Virus record (IMG/VR): IMGVR_UViG_3300044830_000029
Span: 1-21,475 of that record
Length of the DNA: 21,475 nucleotides
Reading direction: 5' to 3' (one strand)
From: a virus
In this document: in pieces, positions 2,010 through 21,475 of the stretch
Numbering within the stretch: the first letter of the stretch is position 1
How the letters are laid out: each line of letters opens with the position of its first letter
Notes under the pieces: model-generated
Seen by the model: the letters and a program-made list of their open reading frames with translations, nothing else
Database searches by the model: none
What the model was told of the DNA's origin: nothing
Made by a program: the position numbers and the translations under genes

Positions 2010-2900
2010 GTGAGCACGATCGAGCAGCCCACCAAGGAGTCCCGCGACCACGAGGCAGCAGTCACCGGATGGATCACCGCCGTCCTGATGTTCGTGACTG
2101 CCACCTGCGAGGCGGGGCTCCTTGGGTCCCTGCTCGCTCCATGGGCCAAGACGTGGCAGGACCAAGTCCAGATGTATCTCGCCGGCGGCATCTTTGGCCT
2201 GCTCTGGCTCTGGTGCGCCTGGGTCGAGTGGGACAACCGCTACGACTCCGAGGGCGCCTTTCTCGGCCGCCGCGGCGGTCTGCTGCTCCAGGTGATCATC
2301 CTCTCGCTGATCACCTGGACGGGCTGGCCTCGCACTGGACCCTGGGACGGCGCGGTGATCTCGATGCTCGCCATCCCCGTGACGTGGCTGTGGCGCGCCT
2401 GGATGAAGACCCAGTCCCTGCACCCGGACGATCAGTCCGAGATCGACCACCTCCTGATCGAGCGGAACAAGCAGCGCGGCGTAGCGCTCGAAGCGAAGAG
2501 GCAGAAGGCTCGGCTGGAAAGGCGGCTGGCTGCGCTCGCCCACCTCAACCTCGACGCGCCGGCGACCGCGCCCATGGCTGCCAAGCCGGCAGAGCCGCGC
2601 TTCAACTGGCCGGTCCCGGAGGGCAAGCACAAGGCCCACGTTTACTTCATCGGCAACGGCAGCCGCGTCAAGATCGGCACGACCAGCAGCCTCCGCGCCC
2701 GGGTGAGCGCCCTCTCGCTGCGCACCAGCGACATCGTCCTGCTCATTGCCGGTGACCGCCGCATGGAGCAGGCCATGCACAAGCGCTTCGCCGACCAGCG
2801 CGTCGGCAGCACCGAGTGGTTCGAGAACACCGGACCCCTGGCCGACTTCATCCGGGGGCACAACGAGCAGGCGCTCACCGCCGCCAAGCAGGGGAGCTGA
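2010..2900 (+). CDS. Four-helix membrane protein with C-terminal GIY-YIG (T5orf172/MUG113-like) domain
   Basis: A 296-residue protein from GTG 2010; AATAGGAG nine bases upstream fixes the start. Four hydrophobic segments are visible at about residues 18-45, 55-73, 89-106 and 113-131. A charged, coiled-coil-like linker follows (145-178). The C-terminus (209-283) has the order expected of T5orf172/MUG113-type GIY-YIG domains: VYFI (211-214) and VKIG (220-223) replace GIY and YIG, then come Arg229/Arg231, Glu253, HKRF (257-260) and EWF (269-271). Known members bind or cut DNA. Whether this one is active is unproven, since the Tyr of the second motif is replaced. The nuclease-like domain should face the cytoplasm. 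It is followed two bases later by a DUF2637-type membrane gene. Confidence 0.8.
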   Translation: MSTIEQPTKESRDHEAAVTGWITAVLMFVTATCEAGLLGSLLAPWAKTWQDQVQMYLAGGIFGLLWLWCAWVEWDNRYDSEGAFLGRRGGLLLQVIILSLITWTGWPRTGPWDGAVISMLAIPVTWLWRAWMKTQSLHPDDQSEIDHLLIERNKQRGVALEAKRQKARLERRLAALAHLNLDAPATAPMAAKPAEPRFNWPVPEGKHKAHVYFIGNGSRVKIGTTSSLRARVSALSLRTSDIVLLIAGDRRMEQAMHKRFADQRVGSTEWFENTGPLADFIRGHNEQALTAAKQGS

Positions 2901-2902
2901 CC

Positions 2903-3802
2903 ATGACCGAGACCGACGACAGTCCCGTCGCTTCGCCGGAGACTATCCGGCGCCTCATGCTGCTCGCGGTCATCCTCTCCATCGCCCTGACCGCCGCAGC
3001 GTTCTGGCTCTCCTACGAGCACCTCCACGACGTTGCCAGCGGCCACGGCCTCAGAGCAGCTCGCGCCTGGGCGTGGCCCGGCACCGTCGACACCTTCATC
3101 GTCCTCGGCGAGGTGATGGTCCTCGTCGCCAACCTGCTCCGCCGGACTGACGGGTGGGCCATCTGCCTGACTCTGATCGGCTCCGTCGGCTCCGTTGCCC
3201 TCAACGTTGCCGGCGTCGGAGCAGGCGCCGCGCCCATGACCTACGTCGTCGCAGCGGTCCCACCTTGCGGCGCGCTTTTGTCATTCGCAGTCCTCATGGG
3301 ACAGATCAAGAAGTTCCTCACCCCGCGACGGGAGCCGACCGAGTCATTGACGGATGCTGCGACGGATCAGTCCGCTGCCGACGACGGAACGACCGACGGA
3401 ACACGGGCTCCCGTCGACGGGAGCGGCGTCGAACCGACGCTTCCCGTCGCGTCGGAACCGGCCCGAACCGTCGACGACCCGACGGCTTCCGTCGACCGTT
3501 CCGACGCACCTTCCGTCGACGAGAAGCCGGCCAAGCCGCCGACGACTCGTCGACCGAAGGCGCCCCGTTCCGCCGCCGGGAAGCGACCGCCCCGTCGCCC
3601 ACTCGACGAGTGGGTGGAGATCGCCAAGCCGATTTTCCACGCCGAGTTCCAACGCCTCCGGCGCCAGCCGACCGCCAACGAGTTCGCCCAAGCGATCGAC
3701 CGAGCCGGCCACGGGCTGCCTTCGGACACCGTCGCGAAGACGATCCGCGCGGAGATCCTCGACCGCGCAGATGTCCCAGCCCTGAATGGAGAAGAGCAAT
3801 GA
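2903..3802 (+). CDS. DUF2637-type four-helix membrane protein (SpdB-like role inferred)
   Basis: A 299-residue protein; GGGGAG seven bases upstream picks the ATG at 2903. Four membrane helices are at about 18-38, 60-80, 87-107 and 112-133, with a short loop SYEHLHDVASGHGLRAARAW between the first two. This is the pattern of actinobacterial DUF2637 proteins. They are common on Streptomyces plasmids and integrative elements beside TraB-like translocases, and are often called SpdB-like or transfer proteins. Residues 140-230 are a disordered Asp/Thr/Pro-rich linker with repeated [P/T/S]VD. Residues 235-290 (DEWVEIAKPIFHAEF, then TANEFAQAI and SDTVAKTIRAEI) look like a helix-turn-helix domain. The stop overlaps the next ATG. 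A membrane-anchored DNA-binding role is inferred. Confidence 0.75.
   Translation: MTETDDSPVASPETIRRLMLLAVILSIALTAAAFWLSYEHLHDVASGHGLRAARAWAWPGTVDTFIVLGEVMVLVANLLRRTDGWAICLTLIGSVGSVALNVAGVGAGAAPMTYVVAAVPPCGALLSFAVLMGQIKKFLTPRREPTESLTDAATDQSAADDGTTDGTRAPVDGSGVEPTLPVASEPARTVDDPTASVDRSDAPSVDEKPAKPPTTRRPKAPRSAAGKRPPRRPLDEWVEIAKPIFHAEFQRLRRQPTANEFAQAIDRAGHGLPSDTVAKTIRAEILDRADVPALNGEEQ
3349..3520 (+). repeat. Short GACGGA and CCGTCGAC direct repeats inside the DUF2637-type gene
   Basis: GACGGA occurs at 3349, 3361, 3383 and 3395 (spacings 12, 22, 12). CCGTCGAC occurs at 3411, 3468, 3489 and 3513, always in the same reading phase. They encode part of the disordered linker ([P/T/S]VD). The cluster could simply reflect amino-acid repetition. 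It could also be a binding site for the element's translocase, as 8-bp TraB recognition repeats are known on Streptomyces plasmids. Confidence 0.35.
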
Positions 3803-4368
3803 CCGAGTACCGCTACCAGTCCCCCTACAACGATCCCGGCTACAACATCAGCTCGATGCCCTATCAGCCCTACCAGACGCCGAAGCCGACGGAGCCCCCG
3901 CCGCCGGCCAAGCTCAGCCCTCGCGCCAAGGCCGGTCTCGGTCTTGGCTTCGCGGCCGTGGCGGCCACTGGCATGTTCACGTGGTCGCAGTACGAGGCCA
4001 ACCAGGCCAACGCGCATATCCGCGCCGGCCAGGTCGCCGTGGATGCGGCGAGGGTGCAGCTGGCCCAGGAGCAGCAGGCCGCCGCCCAGGCGAAGGCCGC
4101 TGCGCAGGAAACCCCTGCTCAGCGGGCTCGTCGTCTCGCGGTGGAGGCGTGCATCGCGAAGGCCGGCAACAACTTCGGCGGGGTGTCGGACTGCGGCTCG
4201 ATCTACCCGGCGACCGGTTCGCCCGCCCTGGCCGACGCGTCGAGCACCAGCAGCACCGGCGGTGGGGCGGGGACCGGCTCGAACGTCGGGCTGATCGTCC
4301 TGGGGTCGATCGGTGTCGTGCTGGTCGGCGGCAAGGCGAAGAAGTTGCTGACCGCACGCAGCCGTTAG
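3799..4368 (+). CDS. Two-helix membrane protein, spread-protein-like
   Basis: A 189-residue protein from ATG 3799, overlapping the previous TGA. The N-terminus (1-36) is Tyr/Pro-rich (YRYQSPYNDPGYN, YQPYQTPKP) and presumably cytoplasmic. A membrane helix at about 45-62 is followed by an Ala/Gln-rich coiled coil (65-115), a loop with two Cys (118 and 132) that could form a disulphide, a Gly/Ser stretch and a second membrane helix (163-178) with a basic tail. The topology implies an external coiled-coil domain held at both ends. Proteins of this shape accompany TraB-like genes in Streptomyces transfer modules, but I cannot assign a named family. The gene ends just before a long inverted repeat. 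Confidence 0.65.
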   Translation: MTEYRYQSPYNDPGYNISSMPYQPYQTPKPTEPPPPAKLSPRAKAGLGLGFAAVAATGMFTWSQYEANQANAHIRAGQVAVDAARVQLAQEQQAAAQAKAAAQETPAQRARRLAVEACIAKAGNNFGGVSDCGSIYPATGSPALADASSTSSTGGGAGTGSNVGLIVLGSIGVVLVGGKAKKLLTARSR

Positions 4369-4374
4369 TCATCT

Positions 4375-4480
4375 CCCCCCACCCACCCCCCACCCGCCAA
4401 GAGAGCGCGCATACGGCTCTCCCGTGCAGGTCAGAGCCCCGACCCTGTTCTCTCAGGTCGGGTGGGGGGTGGGTGGGGGG
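4375..4480 (+). promoter_or_regulatory. Perfect 22-bp inverted repeat with a G-quadruplex-capable arm
   Basis: The left arm (4375-4396) is a C-rich run with C blocks 6,3,6,3 split by single A residues and ending in G. The right arm (4459-4480) is its exact reverse complement, with G blocks 3,6,3,6 split by single T residues. The 62-base loop contains GAGAGC/GCTCTC (4401-4406/4416-4421) and an alternative stem CCCGACC/GGTCGGG (4438-4444/4456-4462) that would compete with the long stem. The G-rich arm lies on the coding strand, so the mRNA could form a quadruplex seven to ten bases before the ribosome binding site of the gene at 4503. It could act as a terminator, attenuator or translational switch, or as a DNA site for transfer. 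Confidence 0.7.
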
Positions 4481-4502
4481 TCAATCGAGAGAGGAGTCCG
4501 TG

Positions 4503-6170
4503 ATGGCGACAGCGACCGCGCCGCCCGTCCCGGCCGGTGTGACCGAGCAGTCGGCCGCGCCCGCAGGACCCGCTGCTGCAGCCGCCCCGGCCACGGCGCC
4601 GGGCCCGCTTGCGCGGATCCTGACGCCGGTCGAGCCCGCCCGGCCGGTGAAGCCGCTGGGGACCACGGCGACCATGGGCGAGGTCTCCGAGGAGGCCAGC
4701 GCCAAGGGCGGCAACGGCAAGAACGGCAAGGCCAGTCCAGGCGACAACAACCGCGGCAGCGCCGTGGCCGCCCTGGTGCACGCCCTGGCCGCCCGGCTGG
4801 CCCGCGGCGGTACAGCGGTCAAGCGGACCCACACCATCACTGAGGCCCGGGTCTCCGGCGCTACCAGCACCGGCACGAACAAGGCCGAGCGCACGCACCG
4901 GCACGACGGCAAGGCCCACGCCACCCGCGACAGCAAGCTGGCCGACCTCCGGAACAAGACGCAGCAGGGCAGGACCAACCGCGACCGCAAGGCCGCGACG
5001 GACGCCAAGACCTCCGACGCCAGGACGTCGAAGGCCGACACTGCAGCCCGGGACAACAAGGATCTGAAGAAGGCGGACAGTAGCGCCGCGAAGACGTCGA
5101 ACGCGAAGGCCGCGACAGCGGACACGGTCTCCAAGAACGACGACCGGGACTACCGCGACACCAAGACCGCCAAGGGCCCGAGCCCCAAGGGGGCGGACGC
5201 CAAGACCGCGGGGCCCGCGAGCGCGAAAGGCGGCACCGCAGCCAAGACGCCGGAACCCTCGACGCCCGCTGCCGCGCGCCCCGACGGACCGGACCTGACG
5301 AAGAAGGCCGACCCGAAGAGCCTGAACACCAAGACCGCCGCTGCGATCAAGCCCGACGACACTGCGCCCGTCGATCTGGTGAAGGACACCAGCGCCGCGG
5401 CCAAGCCGAGCCCGGCCGCGACAACCGAGCCGGCCGCCGCTCCGAAGCTGCGCACCCGCCCCGCGCGGGAGGCCGGGTACCGCGACGGCACCCGCGTCGC
5501 CGCGACCGTCGGACAGGCCAGGGCCTACAAGGACGGCGCTGTCGACGGCTGGGACGACCGCACCGCCGCCGACAAGGCGGAGGGCAAGAAGATGAGCGAC
5601 ACCCGGGCCCGCAACGCCGTCAAGCCCAAGAAGTCAGCCGCTCCGAAGCTGCCGCCGGCCAGCGGGTCGACCGTCGACCTCGCCAAGAAGCCGGCCCCGA
5701 CTGCTGCAGAGCCCGCACGGGTGACCTCCGTCGGAGACAAGGCCGTCGAGTTCGTCGCCGACGGGGCGAGCCACACGATGAGCCGCGGCGAGGTCCGCAC
5801 CCTCAAGGCCTTCGAACGCCGCCTGGGTGACAAGAAGGCCGCGATGGGCCGCGTCGCCGAGGGCAGCAAGGCCACCCGCCTGCAGGCCGTGGAGATGGCG
5901 ACCCGGGCGCAGCGCCTGGCCGAGAACGCGAAGAGCGTCCATGGGGGTGCCCGGATCGTCGCGCTTCTGTCGCGCCTCGCGGAACGATCCCAGGTGCTGC
6001 GCCTGAGGGCCGAGGAGATCGAGAAGAGCGCCCAGCGCGGCAGTGAAGCGGTGCGCGTCCTGGCCGCCAACGCCGAGACCCGGCACGGCGGCATCTATCG
6101 GGCAGTCGTCGACTCGCCTCTGACCACGCCCGCCGAGCGGGAGTTCTACATGGACAAGCAGGGGGGCTGA
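4503..6170 (+). CDS. Lys/Ala/Asp/Thr-rich low-complexity protein with C-terminal helical domain
   Basis: A 555-residue protein. AGAGGAG six bases upstream supports the ATG at 4503; an in-frame GTG directly before it is possible. Residues 1-60 are Ala/Pro-rich. Residues 110-370 are strongly charged and repetitive (TDAKTSDARTSKAD, KADSSAAKTSNAKAA, DTKTAKGPSPKGADAKTAG), resembling the basic tails of bacterial histone-H1-like proteins. Residues 330-390 contain the more ordered REAGYRDGTRVAATVGQARA. From about 430 to the end come long amphipathic helices and a C-terminal motif (HGGI at 528-531, later SP and FY) shared with the next gene. There is no membrane segment. It may coat DNA or act as a scaffold for transfer; the function is inferred only. 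Confidence 0.7.
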   Translation: MATATAPPVPAGVTEQSAAPAGPAAAAAPATAPGPLARILTPVEPARPVKPLGTTATMGEVSEEASAKGGNGKNGKASPGDNNRGSAVAALVHALAARLARGGTAVKRTHTITEARVSGATSTGTNKAERTHRHDGKAHATRDSKLADLRNKTQQGRTNRDRKAATDAKTSDARTSKADTAARDNKDLKKADSSAAKTSNAKAATADTVSKNDDRDYRDTKTAKGPSPKGADAKTAGPASAKGGTAAKTPEPSTPAAARPDGPDLTKKADPKSLNTKTAAAIKPDDTAPVDLVKDTSAAAKPSPAATTEPAAAPKLRTRPAREAGYRDGTRVAATVGQARAYKDGAVDGWDDRTAADKAEGKKMSDTRARNAVKPKKSAAPKLPPASGSTVDLAKKPAPTAAEPARVTSVGDKAVEFVADGASHTMSRGEVRTLKAFERRLGDKKAAMGRVAEGSKATRLQAVEMATRAQRLAENAKSVHGGARIVALLSRLAERSQVLRLRAEEIEKSAQRGSEAVRVLAANAETRHGGIYRAVVDSPLTTPAEREFYMDKQGG

Positions 6171-6171
6171 C

Positions 6172-6540
6172 GTGGCACTGACCTATGGCGAACTGCTGCG
6201 CGAGACGCGGGCCCTGGCCCGGGACGTGCGGCGCGCCACCCAGAGGCACAAGAAGATGGCCTCCGCGATGGACGCCCAGGCCAAGGACACCGGGCGCATC
6301 GCCGAGCAGACCGCCGCCCTCAAGGTCGATCCGGCGACCGTTGCCGAGACCCGCGAGGTCTCGCGAATCATGCAGGGCGTGTCCACGGCCGCGCTCGCCT
6401 ACGCCAACGCCGCCGACGAGGCATCCCGCGCGGCGGTCGCCGCCGAGCAGGCGACCGTCACCACCCACGGCGGCATCAAGGAAGCCCGCGACCGCTCCCC
6501 CGTCGAGATGGCCAACCGCACCTGGTACCGGCAGGAGTAG
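6172..6540 (+). CDS. Small helical protein sharing a C-terminal motif with its upstream neighbour
   Basis: A 122-residue protein from GTG 6172, right after the previous stop. The GGGGGG run over that stop serves as ribosome binding site. Residues 5-45 and 55-95 form amphipathic helices (GELLRETRALARDVRRATQR, then VSTAALAYANAADEASRA), suggesting a helical hairpin. The last 24 residues begin HGGI and carry A, SP, R and WY at nearly the same spacing as the end of the 555-residue protein (HGGI, A, SP, R, FY). The two are therefore related by duplication or share a recognition tail. No membrane segment. It precedes the translocase gene by four bases, which suggests a partner or substrate role; unproven. 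Confidence 0.7.
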   Translation: MALTYGELLRETRALARDVRRATQRHKKMASAMDAQAKDTGRIAEQTAALKVDPATVAETREVSRIMQGVSTAALAYANAADEASRAAVAAEQATVTTHGGIKEARDRSPVEMANRTWYRQE

Positions 6541-6544
6541 GACT

Positions 6545-8812
6545 GTGACCACCAACGACACCACGCCCGCGGCCAAGGCGCTGCCGAACCCTGCCGCCGA
6601 GAAGCGGTTTGCCGTGGCTCAGGTCGCCGCCCCGCTGGCGACCGCCCTGACCCTGCCGCTGCTGGACGGTCAGGCCGCGAGTACCGTCAGCTGCCTGCTG
6701 GCCGTACCCGCCCTGGCCGCCGGCGCGAACTACATGCACCTGCTGTCCGATGAGCACTTGGACGCCCTGCCGGGCGGTGACATCGTGCGCGCCCACCGCG
6801 AGCCGTTCCTGGTCTCCGCGATCGCGACCGCCACCGCGGCGGCCACCGCGACGCAGTACGGCTGGCCCGGAATCGACTCCCTGGCCGCCGGCTGGATGAC
6901 GCTGCCCTCCGTGGCCGGCTTTGTGTCGGTGGCCTGGTGGTCCGCGACCGGCTACATCCACTTCGCGCTGCGCCGCGTCCTGCGCAAGCCCCGCGCGGTC
7001 GCCGCCTACCGCGCGCCCGCCGCCCCAGTCCCAGAGCCGACGCCGGAGCGCGACGTCCTGCAGTACTGGCACGACTGGATCTCCAGCGAGGACGGCGCGC
7101 ACCCCGGCCAGCACCTCACCCTGACCGGCTACAGCCCGGAGGCGTGGGAGGGCACGATCCACTCGATGCCCGGCCGCCCCGTCTCGGTCACCGCCGAGAC
7201 CGTGTCCGGGGTCTACGGCGTCCCCGAGGCGCGGGTCCACCTCATTGACGGTCCGCACACCAGCTCTCGCCACATCCACGTCGACGTGGTCGCGCCGACC
7301 GTCGACGTGGCCGAGTACAGCGCCCTGGAGGCACTGTGGCTGCGGCGTGTGGGCCACAAGGGCGGCTGCATGCCCGGCACCCACCTGGAGGGCATCGTCC
7401 CCGACCCTGCAACCGGTGGCATCGCCGCATGGGTCGTCGCCGACGAGGACACCGACGCCGTCACCGCCCCCGACTCATACCGCATCGCCGGAGCACTTCG
7501 CACCACCACCCTGCTGACGTCCGTCGAACCCACGAACAACCCCCGCCGGGCCAAGCTCCGGCTCATGGACCGCTCACCCCTGGAAGCCGGCCAGCCCCTG
7601 CCTGGCCCCGAGACGCTGCTCGCCAACGCCAACGGGTTCGTGAACCTGGGTACCGGCATCTCCGGCCGCCCTGCCCGCGTGCAGCTGTACGACACCAGGA
7701 TGGGCGCCCGGCACGTCCTGATCGCCGGGGTGACCGGCTCCGGGAAGGGCGGGGCGCTGCAGCTCCTGTGCCTCAGCTACCACGTCAACCGGGTCGCGAT
7801 CATCTACGCCGACCCCAAGGGCTCCAGCAACCCCGACGTCGAGGACATGGCCACCTACCCCGGCTGCGGTATCGACGGTGCGATGGGCGCCCTGCGCGTG
7901 GCCTACGCCCTCCTCCTGCACCGCGTCGAGCAGTCGCAGCGGCTGCGGATGAAGAACTTCGTCCCGACCGCCGACATGCCCTACACCGCCGTGGTCCTGG
8001 ACGAGTTCGCCCAGCTCCTCGGCGAGAAGGCAACCAACAAGGCCGAGGCGGCATTCATCATCGCCGCCCTGGCCGAGCAGGGCCGCTCACTGGGCCTGAT
8101 CCTGATCCTGTGCGGGCAGATCCTGAACCTCGACAAGATGGGCTCGGACACCTCCATCCGCGACAACGTGTTCTACGGCGGCGCCCTGATCCTGCTGCGC
8201 TCCGACAGCGACCAGAGGAACCGGGTCGACCTGCCCGACGCGTTCGCGGGCGTCGACCCCGCCAAGATCCCGGCGTTCTGGAAGAGCGACGAGGACGACA
8301 CTCTGATCTACGACCCGACGGTCCCCGACGACGACCCCAGCCGCACGTTCGGCGTCGGCTACACCGTCGGGCCCGACGACCGCGCCGAGATGATGCGCCT
8401 GTGGATCCTGGAGTCCGCCGCCGGCCTGTTCGATCCGGAGCAGATCGTCATTCCCGCCGACTGGCCCGAGTGGGAGGACCGCGGCGAGATCGCGCTGGTC
8501 CCCGTCGGGCCAGCCGCCGAAGACGAGGATGAGGACGGCGCCGCGAAGTGGACGCCCGGTCAGGCGAAGCCGGCCGCGGCGAAGGAGCCGACGGCGCAGG
8601 AGAAGATCCTCACGGTCCTGGGCGAGTACCGCGACCCGATCGGTCTGGACGTCGGTTACCTGCACCTGGACGCCATCACGGACCAGTCCGGTGTCGCCCG
8701 CAAGACGGTCGAGAACACGGTCAGCCGCCTGGTCAAGGACGGCACCATCCTCCGCAACCCGGCCGCCAGCGGCGAGTACGGGCTGCCTGTCCCCGAGATG
8801 AGCCAGTCGTGA
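6545..8812 (+). CDS. TraB/FtsK/SpoIIIE-type double-stranded DNA translocase
   Basis: A 755-residue protein from GTG 6545, with CAGGAG overlapping the previous stop. The N-terminal 150 residues contain three to four membrane segments (about 27-40, 45-62, 88-104, 118-140). A middle domain (170-340) precedes the FtsK motor: Walker A GVTGSGKG (395-402), ADPKGS (422-427), Walker B VVLDEFAQ (483-490), then EQGRSLGLILILCGQ (511-525). Residues 683-749 form a winged helix (QEKILTVL, SGVARKTVENTVSRLVKDG, YGLPVP), as in the gamma domain of FtsK and the TraB C-terminus. Streptomyces TraB proteins are membrane hexamers that move double-stranded DNA between hyphae. The neighbouring small membrane genes fit that role. 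A chromosome-segregation function is less likely given the context. Confidence 0.87.
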   Translation: MTTNDTTPAAKALPNPAAEKRFAVAQVAAPLATALTLPLLDGQAASTVSCLLAVPALAAGANYMHLLSDEHLDALPGGDIVRAHREPFLVSAIATATAAATATQYGWPGIDSLAAGWMTLPSVAGFVSVAWWSATGYIHFALRRVLRKPRAVAAYRAPAAPVPEPTPERDVLQYWHDWISSEDGAHPGQHLTLTGYSPEAWEGTIHSMPGRPVSVTAETVSGVYGVPEARVHLIDGPHTSSRHIHVDVVAPTVDVAEYSALEALWLRRVGHKGGCMPGTHLEGIVPDPATGGIAAWVVADEDTDAVTAPDSYRIAGALRTTTLLTSVEPTNNPRRAKLRLMDRSPLEAGQPLPGPETLLANANGFVNLGTGISGRPARVQLYDTRMGARHVLIAGVTGSGKGGALQLLCLSYHVNRVAIIYADPKGSSNPDVEDMATYPGCGIDGAMGALRVAYALLLHRVEQSQRLRMKNFVPTADMPYTAVVLDEFAQLLGEKATNKAEAAFIIAALAEQGRSLGLILILCGQILNLDKMGSDTSIRDNVFYGGALILLRSDSDQRNRVDLPDAFAGVDPAKIPAFWKSDEDDTLIYDPTVPDDDPSRTFGVGYTVGPDDRAEMMRLWILESAAGLFDPEQIVIPADWPEWEDRGEIALVPVGPAAEDEDEDGAAKWTPGQAKPAAAKEPTAQEKILTVLGEYRDPIGLDVGYLHLDAITDQSGVARKTVENTVSRLVKDGTILRNPAASGEYGLPVPEMSQS

Positions 8813-9441
8813 CCACACCTCTCCGCGTGCGCCAGGCGAAAGCCCAACTGCGCAGGCGCGTACAGCGCCAGCGGATCACCGGCCCCATGTTGATCATTGC
8901 CGCCCTGATCCTGTTCGACGCCGCACTGTGGCTCTCCCGGCACCCGCAGATCATGATCTGCGTTGCGGCAATCGCAGCCACCACCGCCATTGGCTTCGTG
9001 TACATCAAGATGCACCGCGCTCAGCGCCGCACCATCGCGCCCTACTGCCGGCGCCCCGTCATGGACTTCCGGCGGCTCAGCCCGACCCAGTTCGAGCACG
9101 CCCTCGCCGACCTGTGCCGCCGCGACGGCTGCCGCAACGTCACCGTCGTCGGCGGAGCAGGAGACCTCGCCGCCGACGTACTGGCCACCACCCCGGACGG
9201 CCGCCGGATCCTGATCCAGGCCAAGCGCTACGCCGTCGGCAACCCGGTTCGCTCCCCGATGGTGCAGGCGGTCAACGGCACGTACCGGCAGATCCACGGC
9301 GCAGACCTCGCCGCAGTGGTGACGACGTCCACGTTCACCGAGCAGGCCGCCGCGTTCGGCCGGCGCGTCGGGCTGCGCCTGTTCGACGAGCAGGCCCTGG
9401 CCGCCTGGGCGTCCCGGACCGGCCCCGCACCGTGGCACTGA
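8809..9441 (+). CDS. Membrane-anchored Mrr-type restriction-endonuclease-like protein
   Basis: A 210-residue protein from GTG 8809, overlapping the translocase stop, so probably coupled to it. A basic N-terminus (RVRQAKAQLRRRVQRQR) precedes two membrane helices (about 27-43 and 49-65). The soluble part has the Mrr_cat order: FEHALADLCRRDGC (95-108), GDLAADV (118-124) and IQAK (136-139), then FTEQAAAFGRR and LRLFDEQAL. Asp119 or Asp123 with Gln137 and Lys139 would form the PD-(D/E)xK-like site. Mrr-family enzymes cleave DNA, often modified or foreign. Here the nuclease is tied to the membrane beside a DNA pump, suggesting action on DNA during entry or exit. Activity and substrate are unknown. 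Confidence 0.8.
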   Translation: MTTPLRVRQAKAQLRRRVQRQRITGPMLIIAALILFDAALWLSRHPQIMICVAAIAATTAIGFVYIKMHRAQRRTIAPYCRRPVMDFRRLSPTQFEHALADLCRRDGCRNVTVVGGAGDLAADVLATTPDGRRILIQAKRYAVGNPVRSPMVQAVNGTYRQIHGADLAAVVTTSTFTEQAAAFGRRVGLRLFDEQALAAWASRTGPAPWH

Positions 9442-11855: not shown

Positions 11856-11864
11856 GGTGAGCCC

Positions 11865-14174: not shown

Positions 14175-14193
14175 GTCGGGTCTCCAAGAGGGG

Positions 14194-15453: not shown

Positions 15454-15474
15454 CCCGCATCGCCTGGCGCATCG

Positions 15475-15990
15475 TCAGTCGACCTGCTCCGGGCGGTCCG
15501 ACTCGTTCTCGGACACCCATGCGCGCAGGTCCTCGGCCAGCGTCCCGAGCATGCTCCGGTTCTCCTGCGAGCCGCCCCCGGCCTTCGGCGGCGACAGCTT
15601 CAACGACCGGTCGTAGGCCATCACAGCGGCGGCCATCAACGTGCGCTTGTCCGCCGGCGGCGGCTCGGACACCGGCTCCTCGGTGTACACGTTCTCCTTG
15701 CCGCCGAACGCGAAGACCACGGCCGGCTCCCACATCTGCCGCCGAAGCCGGTCCGCATCCTCCTGCAGCTCGATGGCGGACTGGGCGCGCATCGCGGCGA
15801 GGTCGACCTTGCGGGCGTGGACGGCGACCTCGGTCTCGGACCGGTCGAAGAGCAGGCCCTGCGCGGCGCAGTAGGCCGTGACCGTACCCACGGCCCGGTC
15901 AATCGTGCGGGCGATGGCATTGCGGCCCAGGCCATCCGCGTACAGGCGGCGAATCTCGGCCTTCTCGTCGTCGCCGAGCGGGCGGGCCAT
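15475..15990 (-). CDS. Probable terminase small subunit (helix-turn-helix)
   Basis: A 171-residue protein from ATG 15990; AAGGAGAA six bases upstream chooses this start over an in-frame ATG at 16032. Residues 8-45 form a helix-turn-helix (DEKAEIRRLYADGLGRNAIA, then RAVGTVTAYC), the DNA-recognition domain of many small terminases. A central helical segment follows (VDLAAMRAQSAIELQEDADR), and the acidic C-terminus could contact the large subunit. The small subunit recognises the packaging site and regulates the large subunit. Assignment rests on the DNA-binding fold plus position immediately before the large terminase. A transcription regulator is the alternative, less likely here. Confidence 0.75.
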   Translation of the reverse strand: MARPLGDDEKAEIRRLYADGLGRNAIARTIDRAVGTVTAYCAAQGLLFDRSETEVAVHARKVDLAAMRAQSAIELQEDADRLRRQMWEPAVVFAFGGKENVYTEEPVSEPPPADKRTLMAAAVMAYDRSLKLSPPKAGGGSQENRSMLGTLAEDLRAWVSENESDRPEQVD

Positions 15991-16034
15991 CGGTTCTCCT
16001 TCGCGCCCGCGCGGGGCGTCTCGACTGGTCATGA

Positions 16035-16919
16035 TCAGGGGCGGGTGGCGCGGTCCTGCAGGACGCTGGCCATGGGTGGCTGTGTGGGGTCCTGCCAGTC
16101 CGGGTGCCAGGGGATGGTGGTGCAGCGGCAGTTGATGTGCCGCGGGGGGCCGTTGATCGCGCCGGGGTAGGAGACCTTCGCCGGGTCCGTGGACAGGCCG
16201 CCGGGGAAGAGGCGTCCGGGTTTGACGGAGTGTCCGGCGTAGCCCTGGCAGGCGGGGCAGGCGCCGGGTTCGGCCACCCACATGACCATCACGCCGTCGC
16301 CCGCGAGCACGCGCCCGATGGCTCGCGCCACGGCGGTGACGCCGGCTGCGACCTGCTGGGTGACGGACCATCCGATGGTGGCCCGGATGCGGCCGGCTGC
16401 GCGTTTGGCCCGGTTGACGGCCGCGGTGATCGCGGCGAGGCCGAGGGCGGTCAGGGTTGCGGCGGTGAGCATGGCGATGGCGGCGTCGTGGTCCTGCTTG
16501 ATGCCGTGCGGGAGTTGGTCGATTCCGACGGTGACGTCGTCGGCGAGGGGTGGGGCTTCGGCAGCCGGTGCGGTGAATCCGGCGTGGCGGGCGAAGGCGG
16601 TGGCTTGCTGGGTGCCGAGTTGGCCTGCGGTGTGGGCGGCTGCGGTGGCGATGCGCTGGGCGTGGGCGGCCTGTCCGGTCATGGCGGCGGTGACGCGGGC
16701 GCGGGTGCAGGCGGCGAGGGCCTTGGCTTGGGCGGGTGTTGGTGGCGTGTGCAGGCCGCCGGTGGTGCGGATCCAGTCGTGGGTGGCTGCGGTCTGCGCC
16801 GCCTGGAGGGCGTAGGTGAGCGGGGCAGTGGCGGTGTAGTTGGCGGCGTGGGTGTGTTCGGCCAGGGCGGTGGTCTGCCGCTGGGCGATGTCGCCGAGGG
16901 TCGCTGTGGGGAGCGCCAC
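16035..16919 (-). CDS. MuF-like minor head protein
   Basis: A 294-residue protein. GGAGG seven bases before GTG 16919 fixes the start; the frame is open further upstream without support. The N-terminal 200 residues are Ala/Thr-rich helices (TALAEHTHAANYTATAPLTY and similar). The C-terminus holds the diagnostic block CPAC (221-224), GYAG, LFPGG and PPRHINCRC (258-266), a Cys/His metal-binding pattern known in Mu gpF/SPP1 gp7-like proteins. These enter the head with the portal and affect capsid assembly or DNA ejection. It is transcribed first in the minus-strand operon, with the small terminase start 45 bases beyond its stop. MuF proteins more often follow the portal, so the order is unusual. 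Confidence 0.82.
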   Translation of the reverse strand: MALPTATLGDIAQRQTTALAEHTHAANYTATAPLTYALQAAQTAATHDWIRTTGGLHTPPTPAQAKALAACTRARVTAAMTGQAAHAQRIATAAAHTAGQLGTQQATAFARHAGFTAPAAEAPPLADDVTVGIDQLPHGIKQDHDAAIAMLTAATLTALGLAAITAAVNRAKRAAGRIRATIGWSVTQQVAAGVTAVARAIGRVLAGDGVMVMWVAEPGACPACQGYAGHSVKPGRLFPGGLSTDPAKVSYPGAINGPPRHINCRCTTIPWHPDWQDPTQPPMASVLQDRATRP

Positions 16920-17076
16920 GATCACACCTCCAGCCTTTTTGTAGGAACTGTACAAGTAGTGTGGCGCTTCTTGGCCACTTGGGATATATGATCCTTCTCA
17001 GTACGCGGCCGTCAAGGGCGGTCTCTGCGCGTACACGGCACCCAAGGCGATGCCGGTCTCTTTGGAGGAATCCCAC
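16920..17076. promoter_or_regulatory. Divergent promoter region between packaging and capsid operons
   Basis: This 157-bp gap separates the minus-strand packaging operon from the plus-strand capsid operon, so it should carry two promoters. It is the most AT-rich patch in the window. TATGAT (16987-16992, within GATATATGAT) is a -10 candidate for the plus strand, without a good -35. On the minus strand TACAGT near 16947-16952 could be a -10. TTGTA and TACAA flank GGAACTG near 16939-16955, a small dyad that could bind a regulator. The gap ends with TTTGGAGGAA before the scaffold ATG. Confidence 0.55.
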
Positions 17077-17868
17077 ATGACCACTCCCGCCCCCGGCACC
17101 GCTGCGCCTTCTGGCGACGCCCCGCCGGTCACCCCCGCCGCCGACGCCAACCCGGCACCGGCAGCACCTCCCGCACCTGCATCGCCAGCGCCTGCGGCAC
17201 CCGCCGCCGACGCACCCGCCGCCGAACCGCAGGGCAAGGCCCCCAAGTTCGAGGGCGAGTTCGACCCCGCCAAGTTCGAGCGCCTGGTCGAGAACCTCCG
17301 AGGCGAGGTCGCCACCGAGCGCGAGAAGCGCACCGCCGCAGAGAAGTCCGCGACTGAGCAGGCCGCTCAGCAGCAGGCCGACCTGGTCAAGAAGCTCGCC
17401 GCCGCATTCGGGCTCCAGGGCGAGGAGGCGAAGCCGCCGTCAGTGGAGGAACTGACCAAGCAGCTCGCCGACGCGCGCACGGAGACCGAGAAGACGCAGG
17501 CCCTGGCCCGCCAGCGCGACGTCGAGCTCGCCGTGTACCGATCTGCCGGCAGTGCCGGCGGGGACGCGGACGCACTCCTGGACTCGCGCAGCTTCCTGCG
17601 CTCCATCCGGGACCTCGACCCGGCCGCGAGCACCTTTGCGGACGACGTCGCGGCGGCAGTCGCAAAGGCGGTCGAAGGCAATCCGAAGCTCGCCCTCAAG
17701 CAGCCCGAGGCCCCACAGCCACCGGCGCGCGGAGGGGCTGACCTCAACGGGACGCCAGGCGGAAAGAGGCAGCTCACAGGGGCGGAGGTGAAGCGAATGA
17801 CCCCCGACCAGATCGATCAGGCCCGCAAGAGTGGTCAGCTCCGCGACTACCTCTCCGGTGCCGGATAG
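17077..17868 (+). CDS. Scaffolding-like protein
   Basis: A 263-residue protein from ATG 17077; GGAGGAA upstream excludes the ATG at 17050. Residues 1-60 are Pro/Ala-rich and disordered. Residues 75-165 form a long charged helix or coiled coil (FERLVENLRGEVATEREKRT, later VEELTKQLADARTETEKTQA). The C-terminus includes LTGAEVKRMTPDQIDQARKS, a helical segment of the kind scaffolds use to touch the coat protein. This design and the position directly before the major capsid gene match phage scaffolding proteins, which guide procapsid assembly and then leave. No protease motif is visible. Confidence 0.75.
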   Translation: MTTPAPGTAAPSGDAPPVTPAADANPAPAAPPAPASPAPAAPAADAPAAEPQGKAPKFEGEFDPAKFERLVENLRGEVATEREKRTAAEKSATEQAAQQQADLVKKLAAAFGLQGEEAKPPSVEELTKQLADARTETEKTQALARQRDVELAVYRSAGSAGGDADALLDSRSFLRSIRDLDPAASTFADDVAAAVAKAVEGNPKLALKQPEAPQPPARGGADLNGTPGGKRQLTGAEVKRMTPDQIDQARKSGQLRDYLSGAG

Positions 17869-17876: not shown

Positions 17877-18737
17877 ATGTCCATTCTGGCGTTCAAGCCG
17901 GAAGTGTGGTCCGCGATGCTCCTGGTGGAGCTCCGCAAGACCCTGATCTATGCGCAGCCCACCATCGTGAACCGCGACTACGAGGGTGAGATCGCCCAGC
18001 GCGGCGACACCGTCCACATCTCCGGGATCGGCAACCCGACGGTCACCGACTACACCAACGGCTCCGTCCTGACCTACGAGGACGTGTCCGACGCCGGGAC
18101 GACCCTGCACATCGACCAGGGCAAGTCGTGGGCGCAGAAGTTGGACGACATCGACCGCGCCCAGGCCCTCGGGGACCCGATGGTGCAGGTCATGCAGAAC
18201 TCGGCCTACGTCCTGGCGGACAAGGCCGACCAGTTCGTGGCCTCGATGTGGACCGGCGTGGCCGCCGCGAACCAGATCGGGTCGACCGGTTCGCCGATCA
18301 ACACGTACACCACGGTCACCGACGCCTACGACAAGGTCCTGGTGCCGCTGCGCACCCGCCTGACCAAGAGCAACGTGCCCTCCCAGGGCCGGTACTGCGT
18401 CGTGTCCCCCGAGTTCATGGGCTCCCTGCTGCTGGACCCGCGCTTCATCCGCGCCAACGAGGCCGGGACCGACACCGGTCTGCGCAACGGCATGGTCGGC
18501 AGGGCCGCCGGGTTCGACATCCTCGAATCCAACAACACCCCGAACCCGTCCAGCGACTACCAGGCGGTCATCGCCGGGTACCCGGGGGCGCTGTCCTACG
18601 CCGAGCAGATCGTGGAGACCGAGGCCCTGCGCCTCCAGACCACGTTCGCCGACGCCGTGCGCGGACTGCACGTCTACGGCGGCAAGCTCGTGCGCCCCAC
18701 CGGCCTCGCCGTCGCCGTCATCGACCCGGCCGCCTGA
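17877..18737 (+). CDS. Major capsid protein, P22 coat/gp5-like HK97 fold
   Basis: A 286-residue protein; AGGA overlapping the scaffold stop supports ATG 17877. The opening FKPEVWSAMLLVELRKTLIY, then VNRDYEGEI, GDTVHISGIGNPTVTDYT, LHIDQGKSWAQKLDDIDRAQ and SAYVLADKADQF match the N-terminal arm and E-loop region of the P22-type coat family common in actinophages. YCVVSPEFMGSLLLDPRF and GRAAGFDILESNN fall in the central domain. The C-terminal VRGLHVYGGKLVRPTGLAV is typical of the family. It would form the icosahedral shell. No delta-domain cleavage site is evident, consistent with the separate scaffold upstream. Confidence 0.88.
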   Translation: MSILAFKPEVWSAMLLVELRKTLIYAQPTIVNRDYEGEIAQRGDTVHISGIGNPTVTDYTNGSVLTYEDVSDAGTTLHIDQGKSWAQKLDDIDRAQALGDPMVQVMQNSAYVLADKADQFVASMWTGVAAANQIGSTGSPINTYTTVTDAYDKVLVPLRTRLTKSNVPSQGRYCVVSPEFMGSLLLDPRFIRANEAGTDTGLRNGMVGRAAGFDILESNNTPNPSSDYQAVIAGYPGALSYAEQIVETEALRLQTTFADAVRGLHVYGGKLVRPTGLAVAVIDPAA

Positions 18738-18755: not shown

Positions 18756-19145
18756 ATGTCTCGTACCGCAATCGTGCCCAGCGCCCTCGCCCCGAACAGC
18801 AACCTGTCCGACGCCACATCGGGCGGCTCCGCGCTCGGCACCACCATCGACTCCACTCTGGTGACCAACGGCGCCACCATCGCCCCCGGCGTCTCCCCCG
18901 AGCACCTGATCCTGCTCGTGTCCAACACCACCGCCGGCGCCCTGACCGTGACCCTGCGGGCGGGCAACCGCTTCCAGGGCGGCGCCGGCGACCTGGTCCT
19001 GCCGGTCGCTGCCGCACCGGGCACCTCCTGGCTGGGGCCGTTCGCCTCGGCGCGGATCCTGCAGGCCGACGGCTCGGTCAGCATCGACTTCGCGACCGGG
19101 TTCACCGGGTCGATCAAGGCCCTCAAGTACCCGAGGTACACCTGA
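18756..19145 (+). CDS. Probable capsid decoration or head-stabilising protein
   Basis: A 129-residue beta-rich protein from ATG 18756, with AAGGGA upstream. Segments VPSALAPNSNLSD, HLILLVSNTTAGALTVTLRA, GAGDLVLPVAAAPGTSWLGP and VSIDFATGFTGSIKALKYPR suggest a single beta-sandwich. A small beta protein right after the coat gene is often a decoration or cement protein that binds the outside of the shell. The role is inferred from fold and position; no specific family is recognised. Confidence 0.65.
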   Translation: MSRTAIVPSALAPNSNLSDATSGGSALGTTIDSTLVTNGATIAPGVSPEHLILLVSNTTAGALTVTLRAGNRFQGGAGDLVLPVAAAPGTSWLGPFASARILQADGSVSIDFATGFTGSIKALKYPRYT

Positions 19146-19146
19146 C

Positions 19147-19488
19147 ATGACCGACACCTCCGCCCAGGTGGGCACCTACGTCGGCGAGGGCGGCATTGTG
19201 CTGCACCTCGACGAGTCCCGGCCCGGGACTCCCGCGGATCCGCTGATGGCCAAGCAGCTCGCCAAGGGCGCGCTGCGCCGGGCCGACGACACCGAACTGG
19301 AGGCCGACGCCAAGGGCGAGGTCGTCCACGGGCGTCCGGCAGCCAGCGCCTCCGTCGGCCAGTGGCGCGACTGGGCCATCACCCAGGGCCTGGCGAAGTA
19401 CGAGGCCGAGGGCATGTCCAAGAAGGCCCTGCTGCTGTGGGCCGACCAGGACGGCACCGAGGACCTGGACAGCGCGGGGGTCGTGTAG
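19147..19488 (+). CDS. Head-region protein of unknown function
   Basis: A 113-residue protein from ATG 19147, one base after the preceding stop, with GAGG inside that gene. The N-terminal half is Gly/Ala/Asp-rich with a strand GGIVLHLDESRPGTP. The C-terminal half has helices MAKQLAKGALRRADDTELEA and WRDWAITQGLAKYEAEGMSK followed by KALLLWADQDG. The last part resembles a small SAP- or Rho-N-like helical unit seen in phage head genes (helix, short turn, KAxLL), but I cannot confirm it. It lies between the decoration gene and the head-tail adaptor. Function unknown. Confidence 0.7.
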   Translation: MTDTSAQVGTYVGEGGIVLHLDESRPGTPADPLMAKQLAKGALRRADDTELEADAKGEVVHGRPAASASVGQWRDWAITQGLAKYEAEGMSKKALLLWADQDGTEDLDSAGVV

Positions 19489-19490
19489 CC

Positions 19491-19883
19491 GTGCCATACG
19501 CGTCCGTCGACGACCTCACCGCATTCCTCGGCTCCCTGCCGCTGCCCCTGGACGTGTCGCGCCTCCTGGAGGAGGCGTCGGACGACCTGGACGGCGTGCT
19601 CGTCGGTGCGCGCTACGCCACCGACGACAGCGGGATGCCGACGGATGCGGCGGTCCAGACGGCGCTGCGCAAGGCGTGCGTGCGGCAGGTGCACTGGCTG
19701 ATGGACCGCGACGACGAGACGGGGGCGACCTCGGACGTGCAGTCGATGACGACCGGGTCGCGGTCCGTCACGCGCCGCACCGGGGCCAATGCGGCTGCCA
19801 CGACCCCGCAGTTGGGGCCGAGGGCGGCGCAGGCCCTGCGCACCTCCGGCCTGCTGCATCCCTTCCCTGTGACGTTCGGGTGA
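19491..19883 (+). CDS. Head-tail connector (adaptor) protein
   Basis: A 130-residue protein from GTG 19491; GGGGG upstream supports it. The start PYASVDDLTAFLGSLPLPLD, with a helix LLEEASDDLDGVLVGARY and a later AVQTALRKACVRQVHWLMDR, is the pattern of the gp6/gp15-type adaptor family, whose helical bundle docks onto the portal. The C-terminal tail (RRTGANAAATTPQLGPRAAQ) could extend to the next ring. It is the first neck gene and precedes a stopper-like protein, as in siphoviruses. Confidence 0.75.
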   Translation: MPYASVDDLTAFLGSLPLPLDVSRLLEEASDDLDGVLVGARYATDDSGMPTDAAVQTALRKACVRQVHWLMDRDDETGATSDVQSMTTGSRSVTRRTGANAAATTPQLGPRAAQALRTSGLLHPFPVTFG

Positions 19884-19889
19884 TGGCGC

Positions 19890-20219
19890 GTGCCGGTCAT
19901 CGGAAACGAGCGGGTCACGGTCCTGAACGCGCCCCTGTCCAAGGACGGGTACGGCAATCAGGTCCGGGACTGGGATGCGGCGGTCGCCACGGTCATCGGC
20001 CGGGTAACGGTCGATCCGCTGTCCGGCCAGGAGAACACGACGGCCAACGACCAGACCACGACGACCATGCGGGCGATCATGCCCGCCAATTCGCCGGTCG
20101 GCGAGTTCTCGCGCATCCAGTGGCTGGACCGCACGTGGGAGGTCGACGGGCGCCCCGACATCTACCGGGGCGGTCCGCTGGCGCATCTCTCGGTGGTCCT
20201 GAAGGAGGTGCAGGGCTGA
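19890..20219 (+). CDS. Head closure (stopper) protein
   Basis: A 109-residue protein from GTG 19890, six bases after the adaptor. Beta-rich segments PVIGNERVTVLNAPLSKDGY, VATVIGRVTVDPLSGQEN, TTTTMRAIMPANSPVGEFSR and WLDRTWEVDGRPDIYRGG follow the gp16/SPP1-like stopper pattern, including the strand RIQWLDRTWEVDG near the end. Stoppers seal the head after packaging and form the tail-binding surface. The stop overlaps the next ATG (TGATG at 20217-20221). Confidence 0.75.
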   Translation: MPVIGNERVTVLNAPLSKDGYGNQVRDWDAAVATVIGRVTVDPLSGQENTTANDQTTTTMRAIMPANSPVGEFSRIQWLDRTWEVDGRPDIYRGGPLAHLSVVLKEVQG

Positions 20220-20536
20220 TGGACGTGACCCTGGACCAGGCCGCGATCAACCGCCTCGTGGTGGATCCGGATGTGCAGCGGGATCTGCAGCGGCGCACGG
20301 ACATGGTGGTGCAGGCGGCGAAATCCACCGCCCCGGTACTGACCGGCGCGTACCGGGCGTCGATCCACCAGGAGCCGCAGTACGACGCCGACGGGGCCCG
20401 CACGGTCACCGCGGACGTGCACTACGCGATCTATGTGGAGCACGGCACGCGGCAGACCGACCGGCACGGCCGCTCGATCCATCCGGCCCGTTTCACCCTG
20501 ACGCGGGCCCTGGATGCGGCCGGGGGCGATTCCTGA
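20219..20536 (+). CDS. HK97 gp10-like neck or tail-completion protein
   Basis: A 105-residue protein from ATG 20219, with a near-perfect AAGGAGGT nine bases upstream. The blocks VVQAAKSTAPVLTGAYRASI, VTADVHYAIYVEHGTR and HPARFTLTRALDAAG are the hallmarks of the HK97 gp10 family: K..AP..TG..R.SI, then Y..YVE.GT and a final helix. Family members sit at the head-tail joint or help tail assembly in siphoviruses. The gene lies between the stopper and the tail terminator, the usual place. Confidence 0.82.
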   Translation: MDVTLDQAAINRLVVDPDVQRDLQRRTDMVVQAAKSTAPVLTGAYRASIHQEPQYDADGARTVTADVHYAIYVEHGTRQTDRHGRSIHPARFTLTRALDAAGGDS

Positions 20537-20967
20537 TGGCAGGGGGTGTGCTGCTGCCCGACGAGGAGTTGATGGCCGTCGCCCTCCTGACGGCGGCGCT
20601 GGACGGCGTGACGGTGTGCACCGACCTGCCGGACGGATCCGCGTTCACTGCGGCGCTGCCGGTGGTGCGGGTGCTGCGGGCCGGCGGCCTGCCGGACATC
20701 GCGGCGTGGGGCGGCGACGTGCTGCGGGACAACCCGCGCCTGTCGGTGGACTGCTACGCCGCGAGCCGGGCGCAGTGCAAGGAGTTGGTGGCGCGCGTGC
20801 GGGCCGCGTGGATGTCGATGGCGGGGGCCTCGACACCGCAGGGATCGGTCAGCAGGGCGTGGGAGGAAGTCGGGCCCACGGCCCGACCGGAGGAGCCGAA
20901 CACCAATATCACCCGCTTTGGCTGGATCGCAGGCATGAGCGTGCGCCCGCCCCGAGCCGGATCTTGA
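20536..20967 (+). CDS. Tail terminator protein
   Basis: A 143-residue protein from ATG 20536, overlapping the previous TGA. Segments LMAVALLTAALDGVTVCTDL, ALPVVRVLRAGGLPD, DNPRLSVDCYAASRAQCKEL and VARVRAAWMSM give the alpha-beta pattern of lambda gpU/SPP1 gp17-type terminators, which cap the tail tube and bind the head. NTNITRFGWIAGMSVRPP near the end is the expected last strand. It is followed by the major tail protein. Confidence 0.75.
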   Translation: MAGGVLLPDEELMAVALLTAALDGVTVCTDLPDGSAFTAALPVVRVLRAGGLPDIAAWGGDVLRDNPRLSVDCYAASRAQCKELVARVRAAWMSMAGASTPQGSVSRAWEEVGPTARPEEPNTNITRFGWIAGMSVRPPRAGS

Positions 20968-20977
20968 GGAGGCCCTC

Positions 20978-21475
20978 GTGGGCACAGCGGACAATGTGAT
21001 CATCGGTGTCACCGGCAAGGCCTACATGGCCGTCGTCGGCACCGCCTTCCCCGCCGACCCCTTCACGGCGTGGGCGACCCCGTGGGTGGACCTGGGCTAC
21101 ATCTCCACCGACGGCCTGGACGAGAGCCTGGGCGAGAACCGCACCGAGATCGACGCCTGGGGCGAGAACTCGCCGGTCATCACCCGGGTGAAGAACCGCC
21201 AGCAGACGTTCAAGATGACGTTCCTGGAGACCACGGCCGCAACCCTGCAGCTCTACTACGCGGTCAAGGCCTCCGACATGAACGCCTCCGGGGCCGGTAC
21301 GGGCGCCTTCGTGGCCTTCGGCTCCGCCTCGACGACCACGGCCTACACCACGGCCCTGGGCCTGGACGTCGTCATGGACAACAAGATCGAGCGGATCATG
21401 ATCGCGCGTGCGGACGTCACCAACCGCGGCGACCGCAAGTTCAACGCCAACGACGCCGCGTCCATGGAGATGACG
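20978..21475 (+). CDS. Major tail tube protein, truncated by the window end
   Basis: At least 166 residues from GTG 20978, with TTGAGGAGG upstream, and still open at the last base. VIIGVTGKAYMAVVGTAFPA, WVDLGYISTDGLDESLGEN, EIDAWGENSPVITRVKNRQQ, FKMTFLETTAATLQLYYAVK and MDNKIERIMIARADVTNRGD match siphovirus major tail proteins, which stack as hexamers to form the flexible tail. The position after the terminator agrees and indicates a siphovirus-type virion. Its end and any C-terminal Ig-like domain lie outside the window. Confidence 0.82.
   Translation, partial: MGTADNVIIGVTGKAYMAVVGTAFPADPFTAWATPWVDLGYISTDGLDESLGENRTEIDAWGENSPVITRVKNRQQTFKMTFLETTAATLQLYYAVKASDMNASGAGTGAFVAFGSASTTTAYTTALGLDVVMDNKIERIMIARADVTNRGDRKFNANDAASMEMT

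Follow-up and report, generated by a model that had tools for sequence, protein, structure and literature searches.

Phages and conjugative elements tend to be regarded as distinct routes, and according to a 2024 review (PMC11652158) the acquisition of genes by which phages or plasmids would turn into phage-plasmids 'has not yet been observed'. Plasmid-phages of the pZL12 type are an already known kind of element; pZL12 is called a plasmid-phage in the title of a paper cited in two articles (PMC4487206, PMC3583192), and its conjugation is said in one of them to require a tra gene and two neighbours (PMC3583192). In pZL12, pSLE1, pSAM1 and pCQ4 (85-90 kb) transfer genes lie directly before a virion module. 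The DNA analysed here, the entire IMG/VR virus record IMGVR_UViG_3300044830_000029 (21,475 bp; 'the window'), has the same arrangement, with a transfer module built around a TraB-like ATPase at 2010-9691 and a siphovirus virion side starting at 10117, and comes from a replicon of similar size; the likeness to pZL12 is to its description in the literature and not to its sequence. We consider it likely that the window is an inner fragment of a ~85-kb temperate siphovirus of the pZL12/pSLE1 kind which carries an actinomycete double-stranded DNA (dsDNA)-transfer module, both halves working as in the original prediction, made from the window alone, that one element could spread by conjugation and as particles. 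What is new here are the changes of virion type on the TraB tree, the non-viral TraBs that are 67% identical to that of the window, the exchange of the translocase at the junction of the two modules, and a hairpin at a fixed site.

An 84,849-bp IMG/VR virus contig (G001; L and G numbers are our labels for related loci and sequences) contains the entire window at at least 99.99% identity, the window being an inner piece of it. The longer contig adds a GH25 endolysin and a holin, placed after the tail, a DnaB helicase and an O-like initiator upstream of the transfer module, tail-tip and fibre genes, and a 1696-residue protein at the tape-measure position, named from its size, place and homology to plasmid genes; RecT, YqaJ, an HU-like protein, an HTH_3 regulator-like protein and a serine integrase are also encoded. 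One replicon in the ~85-95 kb range of the pZL12 kind therefore holds a transfer module together with the terminase, portal, capsid, tail tube, tape measure and endolysin of a siphovirus. The flanks thus supply the integrase, replication and lysis genes that the original prediction had proposed to look for beyond the window; its suggestion that the transfer genes occupy the place of lysis or replication genes is wrong, because the endolysin, holin, DnaB and initiator lie elsewhere in the contig. The two modules were predicted to lie within about 700 bp of each other, and the gap measures ~425 nt (9691 to 10117), or ~675 nt when counted from 9441. Reading frames are open on both sides, in agreement with the prediction that no gene is broken, the tail-tube gene being cut only by the end of the record.

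The same gene order, i.e. transfer genes, then portal, large terminase subunit (TerL), small terminase subunit and minor head genes on the opposite strand, then scaffold, capsid and tail genes, is shared by three circular Streptomyces plasmids of 88-93 kb, those of QHH-9511 (NZ_CP046906), S. europaeiscabiei (NZ_CP107843) and NBC_01483 (NZ_CP109440). With respect to these three, the window's capsid protein is 67-70% identical, its TerL 56-63% and its portal 49-52%, whereas its TraB is only 41-45% identical to the plasmids' TraB and 23% to the transfer ATPase of NBC_01483. The longer contig and these plasmids establish that the two halves belong to one element. No match to the ParA and ParB families PF13614 and PF02195 was found in the 84.8-kb contig, which is possibly incomplete; the same search of three plasmids, those of QHH-9511 and S. 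europaeiscabiei among them, gave ParA in all three and ParB in two (both in QHH-9511, ParA only in S. europaeiscabiei).

pSLE1 and pSAM1, which are kin of pZL12 or prophage-like, have a TraB of the same family, 42-43% identical to that of the window; in these two and in an S. californicus plasmid, the terminase that comes after the same kind of transfer module differs from that of the window and shares the strand of TraB. The window differs from the pZL12 group in its SV1-like TerL (~60%), its phrog_267 capsid and its inverted packaging genes, as well as in having a TraB of the clade found in Kitasatospora and in actinomycete integrative and conjugative elements (AICEs), a serine integrase and no ParA/ParB match. 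The SV1-like Streptomyces siphophages SV1, Picard and Piccadilly, whose TerL is ~60% identical to that of the window, differ in size from the window's element, being 34-41 kb. An AICE-like element of Kitasatospora xanthocidica (L010) has a TraB 67% identical to that of the window, homologues of the window's 122- and 189-residue proteins and the hairpin; it differs in that Prim-Pol, DUF3631, an HTH_17 protein and a tyrosine integrase follow TraB, as in an AICE. In place of the AICE set beside TraB (Rep or Prim-Pol, Xis and tyrosine integrase), the window's element has, among the proteins scanned, a serine integrase, DnaB and the O-like initiator.

The putative pump is a 755-residue protein encoded at 6545-8812 (+), which the original prediction had recognized as a TraB/FtsK-like ATPase; this is borne out by a PF01580 match above the cut-off (35.4 versus 24 bits) and by the FtsK-like motor of its AlphaFold model. 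The Walker A motif, GVTGSGKGG, is at residues 395-403 and there is a Walker B-like VVLDE. The model, built from 43 homologues, has a mean predicted local distance difference test score (pLDDT) of 81.7 and a predicted template modelling score of 0.52; an earlier model from six sequences (pLDDT 41) was discarded. The best solved matches of the modelled motor are FtsK (E 5e-12) and TcpA, the conjugation coupling protein of pCW3 (E 4e-11). Its N terminus is modelled as long helices, hydrophobic by eye, and its C terminus as a small helical domain whose predicted secondary structure is compatible with a winged helix. The modelled motor fold assigns the protein to the FtsK/TraB-like superfamily of dsDNA translocases, and that it works like a TraB is, at the level of the model, well supported.

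The link between this pump and virion genes is common but not obligatory. The window ATPase matches 135 of 72,556 plasmid records (129 from Streptomyces and six from Kitasatospora); a tblastn search of 50,697 phage records gave none. In 58 plasmids with a TraB of this family (E 1e-60 or better), at least 22 carry, among the matches listed, one of two TerL types 940-5376 bp from TraB; in three the TerL is of the window type and in 19 of the pSLE1 type. The pSLE1-type TerL occurs at 56% identity or more, again among the matches listed, in 34 Streptomyces and Kitasatospora plasmids, including the 19 just mentioned. We examined four of the other 15, namely pCQ4 and the plasmids of S. pseudovenezuelae, NEAU-sy36 and Kitasatospora NBC_01246. 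In pCQ4 the TraB found in the same place, preceding the terminase/capsid module, scores 847.7 bits and so exceeds the NCBIfam equivalog cut-off of 800, and S. pseudovenezuelae has, according to its annotation only, a short gene labelled TraB, a 760-residue hypothetical protein and a restriction nuclease. Among 57 IMG/VR loci, 52 have a strong TraB match, and a TerL of four tested types lies in the flank of 43 of these (36 pSLE1-type, four window-type, two type D and one type C), query-source loci being counted and near-copies included. The other nine have type C (L007, L006), window-type (L008) or phrog_9-type (L128, L130, L140, L129, L156, L164) terminases, so that a terminase stands beside TraB in all 52 loci of this biased sample.

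Which virion module stands beside TraB appears to have changed repeatedly. We placed six labels, one for each of five terminase groups and one for 'none', on a maximum-likelihood TraB tree of 44 rows in which 29 of the 41 inner branches have good support. They require at least 14 changes, the least possible being five; shuffled labels gave a mean of 15.4 changes, with 20 of 200 shuffles as low as 14. When only virion-bearing rows are considered, 11 changes compare with 11.5 for shuffled labels (117 of 300 shuffles as low). The pSLE1-type label alone clusters beyond chance (nine changes versus 13.2; five of 500 shuffles as low). In the clade to which the window belongs, which has six members and good support, window-type, type C and type D terminases occur together with a plasmid without virion genes and the AICE-like element. 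The terminase groups are themselves partly related, types B and D being 33% identical and types A and C both matching phrog_2. The phrog_9-type group comprises L164, L156, L128, L140 and L042, and the count remains 14 with or without merging L164. The tree omits the partial TraBs L149, L150, L157, L162, L166, L168, L170 and L171, the near-copies L007, L127, L129, L130, L145 and L146, the distant NBC_01483 protein and the pCQ4 TraB; the near-copies L003, L037, L038 and L039 enter as L138, L141, L163 and L154.

These sequence comparisons suggest that the two halves have repeatedly been re-paired with new partners, and instances can be seen from either side of the junction. The closest non-viral TraBs found (67% identical) are those of the AICE-like element and of a plasmid that lacks virion genes. 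No virion gene is annotated in 1-50000 or 51810-92044 of the K. indigofera plasmid (92,044 bp), whose annotation is incomplete, and none of five terminase types was found in those stretches, in 22 kb around TraB in K. xanthocidica, or in stretches around TraB in S. zaomyceticus and NBC_01298. From the virion side, the nearest relative with long flanks is an 80.8-kb contig with a TerL 74% identical to that of the window and the same inverted layout; its junction is occupied by an FtsK-like translocase of another kind (PF01580 39.6 bits; phrog_1358 E 4e-83), and it gave no match to the TraB profile. The literature searched (titles and abstract openings, with subscription papers mostly outside it) yielded no paper describing either the re-pairing of modules or the hairpin.

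The hairpin is a long inverted repeat with 22-bp perfect core arms at 4375-4480, between the genes for the 189-residue protein and a 555-residue protein. An inverted repeat occurs at the same site in most related loci, including the AICE-like element, plasmids and phage contigs (among them L002, L004, L006, L008-L010, L038, L042, L044, L136, L147, L156 and L158). In 38 loci, from which near-copies had been dropped and of which L008 was measured at the wrong gap, the gapless inverted-repeat score is at least 11 in 27, compared with six of 300 stretches taken from these loci as controls, and at least 16 in 17, compared with none of 300; it is below nine in four, including QHH-9511 and S. californicus. 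The window hairpin has a folding z-score of -7.7, and values below -3 were obtained for 24 of 45 loci versus 11 of 270 controls, the 45 including near-copies and three loci (L003, L138, L008) with a wrongly placed gap. The arms diverge strongly by clade (CCCACCC-, TTCCTTCC-, TTCATTCC- and GTAGTTACT-type) yet remain complementary, and the 5' arm is, by eye, pyrimidine-rich. Rfam gave only sub-threshold matches in the window, the mir-like ones being the hairpin itself.

We regard the hairpin as a candidate for a cis-acting transfer site (clt) or for an RNA regulator or attenuator of the downstream gene. The clt possibility is raised because the known clt loci of pIJ101 and pJV1 are described as combining direct and imperfect inverted repeats (PMC3583192). 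Several other measures were considered and set aside. A count of long-range base pairs (the L003 row being void) discriminated poorly, a total of at least 12 pairs being reached by 34 of 38 loci but also by 159 of 290 controls, and was replaced by the gapless inverted-repeat score and the folding z-score. Co-evolution of the arms with the putative winged helix was examined by a Mantel test on 27 loci (arms below 11 nt dropped, L008 arm substituted); the partial correlation given the motor is 0.33 (p 0.0005), but the membrane-side domain does equally well (0.39, p 0.0005), so the correlation is unspecific and could be phylogeny, arm similarity tracking that of TraB and not of the winged helix specifically. 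A cluster of 8-bp direct repeats, CCGTCGAC, at 3411-3520 in the DUF2637 gene (0 of 20 shuffles) resembles the TraB recognition sequence (TRS) type and was not taken as a clt; other 8-bp clusters in G003, K. indigofera and K. xanthocidica are of other sequences, and the search gave none in the G004 stretch.

By analogy with precedent, the host would be of the Streptomyces/Kitasatospora type, in which the prophage would be integrated by the serine integrase or would remain free. A membrane-anchored ring of the TraB-like pump, together with the DUF2637 protein and small proteins, may then move dsDNA from hypha to hypha, with no lysis. The precedents likewise suggest a switch to the second route, in which, upon induction, the same genome would be replicated and TerL would load it into a siphovirus capsid by way of the portal, the particles being released by holin and endolysin. 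A number of observations weigh against such a dual route. The NCBIfam TraB model NF041214 gives 46.8 bits, versus a cut-off of 800, in a partial match over residues 311-542, and because this equivalog cut-off is failed, identity of the protein with that TraB is not supported by its sequence. Its Walker A motif ends in GKG, not in the standard GK[ST]; GKG is also found in 11 of 12 aligned rows and 39 of 39 IMG/VR homologues (a few being the same plasmids), the family form being GxTGSGKGG, and VirD4/TraG coupling proteins likewise carry GKG. The longer contig has no end repeats, which leaves its completeness unproven. Of the 58 TraB plasmids, 36 have neither TerL type among the best 60 rows, although one of them, NZ_CP109578, has a phrog_9-type terminase; TraB therefore often travels without these virions. 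The linkage counts from IMG/VR are biased, that database being preselected for viruses, and when the search was begun from the terminase, a flanking TraB of this family was seen in just one of 80 loci (kept from 106 matching loci), which was the contig of the window itself.

The case that only one of the two routes still works, i.e. that the element is a plasmid with a decaying prophage or a prophage with a captured transfer island, is unlikely in our view, yet it would suit pSAM1, which is reported to be strongly expressed in one medium and to contribute, in another, less than 0.01% of the reads from purified particles, a further point against a working dual route (PMC11302927). The K. indigofera plasmid and the large linear plasmids examined, which keep TraB and have no virion genes nearby, also fit a single route. 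Set against this, the two modules have open reading frames in the window as in the contig, and the arrangement recurs beside several terminase groups, which is what retention of both halves would predict. The closeness of the modelled motor to FtsK would suit a different role for the pump, in spread or segregation within the mycelium (septa, spores), horizontal spread then being by particles only; in the same direction, no annotated transfer gene is present in ~6.5 kb upstream of the terminase/capsid module of NEAU-sy36 or in ~8 kb upstream of that of Kitasatospora NBC_01246, both pSLE1-type virion plasmids whose hypothetical proteins were not scanned, and these two plasmids likewise count against the dual route. 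We think this quite improbable, since the same TraB clade is present in the AICE-like element and in a virion-free plasmid, which would need TraB for horizontal spread, pCQ4 has its equivalog-passing TraB in the same place, and pZL12 transfer is, in the article cited above, said to require tra. That two separate elements merely abut, or that the window is an assembly chimera, has in its favour only that the class of gene switches abruptly at 9700-10100 and that linkage is low when counted from the terminase side (1/80). Two IMG/VR records agree across the junction, complete plasmids share it and at least 22 of the 58 plasmids have a linked TerL among the matches listed; the longer contig and the plasmids have already refuted this case, along with the possibility raised in the original prediction that the two halves are never linked, and we accord it practically no weight.

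Preference for a dual-route element invites a wider and more tentative proposal, which we put at somewhat below even chances, that conjugative temperate phages are a lasting life-style of filamentous actinomycetes and did not arise as isolated accidents. A hairpin-bearing transfer cassette, the hairpin being a new type of clt that would drift in sequence but retain its pairing and may co-evolve with TraB, would have been re-paired time and again with several terminase/capsid groups, AICEs and plasmids, and virion modules would have re-paired with several different translocases, selection favouring the possession of both routes. The reshuffled virion types would fit selection for the combination better than the inheritance of one accident. 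Since one pump occurs beside several terminase groups and is often re-paired, joint selection of the two routes becomes a question that can be asked directly; the TraB tree is comparative, not direct, evidence of such gain and loss of modules, and the hairpin, which can be deleted, is a specific candidate for the site on which this TraB family would act in cis. What most deserves to be followed is the hairpin's conservation and the recurrent re-pairing, and the dual-route interpretation is a reasonable one.

The genes around the pump are in part conserved with it. Seven small open reading frames (ORFs) called upstream of the transfer genes (55-1870, +) lie at 55-294, 291-527, 524-775, 772-1185, 1182-1325, 1322-1642 and 1646-1870; two were scanned, neither having a strong family match, and the product of 524-775 has homologues (28-69%) upstream of TraB in G002, G003, G004, K. 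indigofera, K. xanthocidica and QHH-9511. The first transfer gene (2010-2900, +) encodes a protein with a hydrophobic N-terminal region, by eye, and a GIY-YIG-like T5orf172/MUG113 C-terminal domain (PF10544 29.5 bits, cut-off 20; PF13455 29.7 bits, cut-off 22.3), a 76-residue piece of which matches the product of a GIY-YIG gene positioned after TraB in QHH-9511. The DUF2637 protein of the original prediction is encoded at 2903-3802 (+; PF10935 56.8 bits, cut-off 22.8) and is matched at the equivalent place in S. europaeiscabiei and NBC_01483, with no match in the genes at that place in QHH-9511 and pSLE1. Immediately 5' of the hairpin, the gene for the 189-residue protein (3799-4368, +) has homologues in eight of 12 loci compared (G002, G003, G004, G005, K. 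indigofera, K. xanthocidica, pSAM1 and S. californicus). The 555-residue low-complexity protein (4503-6170, +), coiled-coil by eye, has no match in Pfam or PHROGs and has homologues before TraB in 10 of 12 loci, and the 122-residue conserved protein (6172-6540, +) has a homologue, 36-80% identical, just 5' of TraB in 11 of 12 other loci, being absent only from NBC_01483. An Mrr_cat nuclease (8809-9441, +; PF04471 84.8 bits) with an N-terminal hydrophobic stretch, by eye, has a start that overlaps the TraB stop, an alternative later start also being called; homologues follow TraB in G002, G003, G004, G005 and NBC_01483. A 66-residue protein (9491-9691, +; phrog_9864) has a homologue after TraB in G005. 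The gap between the modules contains a small ORF (9679-9840, -), with a homologue in one relative, and a perfect 16-bp inverted repeat (9951-9993), a possible transcription boundary.

The virion side opens with three accessory or fibre ORFs (10117-12206, +). Homologues of the first (10117-10578, phrog_26662) separate TraB from virion modules of other kinds in L128 and L156; the second (10611-11855) matches phrog_14065 and phrog_2804, a phrog_2804 homologue lying downstream of TraB in L164; the third is at 11865-12206. At 11767-11813, in an accessory virion gene, there is a sub-threshold match to the Guanidine-II riboswitch (23.8 bits, gathering cut-off 32), probably by chance. Portal, TerL, minor head, major head, connector and major tail genes all match PHROGs, confirming the virion genes of the original prediction. 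The packaging genes (12486-16955) encode the portal (12486-14174, -; phrog_533 E 5e-101), TerL (14194-15453, -; phrog_2 E 2e-48), a likely small terminase subunit between TerL and the minor head gene (15475-15990, -; phrog_5536, function unnamed there) and a MuF-like minor head protein (16035-16955, -; phrog_115 E 1e-12), and are inverted relative to the scaffold, capsid and tail genes. They are likewise inverted in QHH-9511, S. europaeiscabiei, NBC_01483 and L046 and colinear in G004. The latter (175,260 bp, loci L028-L036) has two related virion modules ~94 kb apart, aligned pieces of which are 74-91% identical; they could be prophages in tandem or parts of a cointegrate, or could stem from misassembly. 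Beyond the inverted block are a likely scaffold protein (17050-17868, +; phrog_15186 E 3e-53, function unnamed; phrog_2592, head scaffolding, E 2e-5), the major capsid protein (17877-18737, +; phrog_267 E 1e-72) and six head-tail connector or completion ORFs (18756-20967, +; phrog_2322 connector at 19147-19488), with homologues in the same order in QHH-9511, S. europaeiscabiei and NBC_01483. The major tail (tube) protein (20978-21475, +; phrog_117 E 2.5e-32), cut in the window, is complete in the 84.8-kb contig at 189 residues. That contig also has, at ~4986-9867 (L015), downstream of the tail fibre and on the opposite strand, a block of minus-strand genes (g096-g102), some of which are, by eye, glycosyltransferase- or sugar-epimerase-like.

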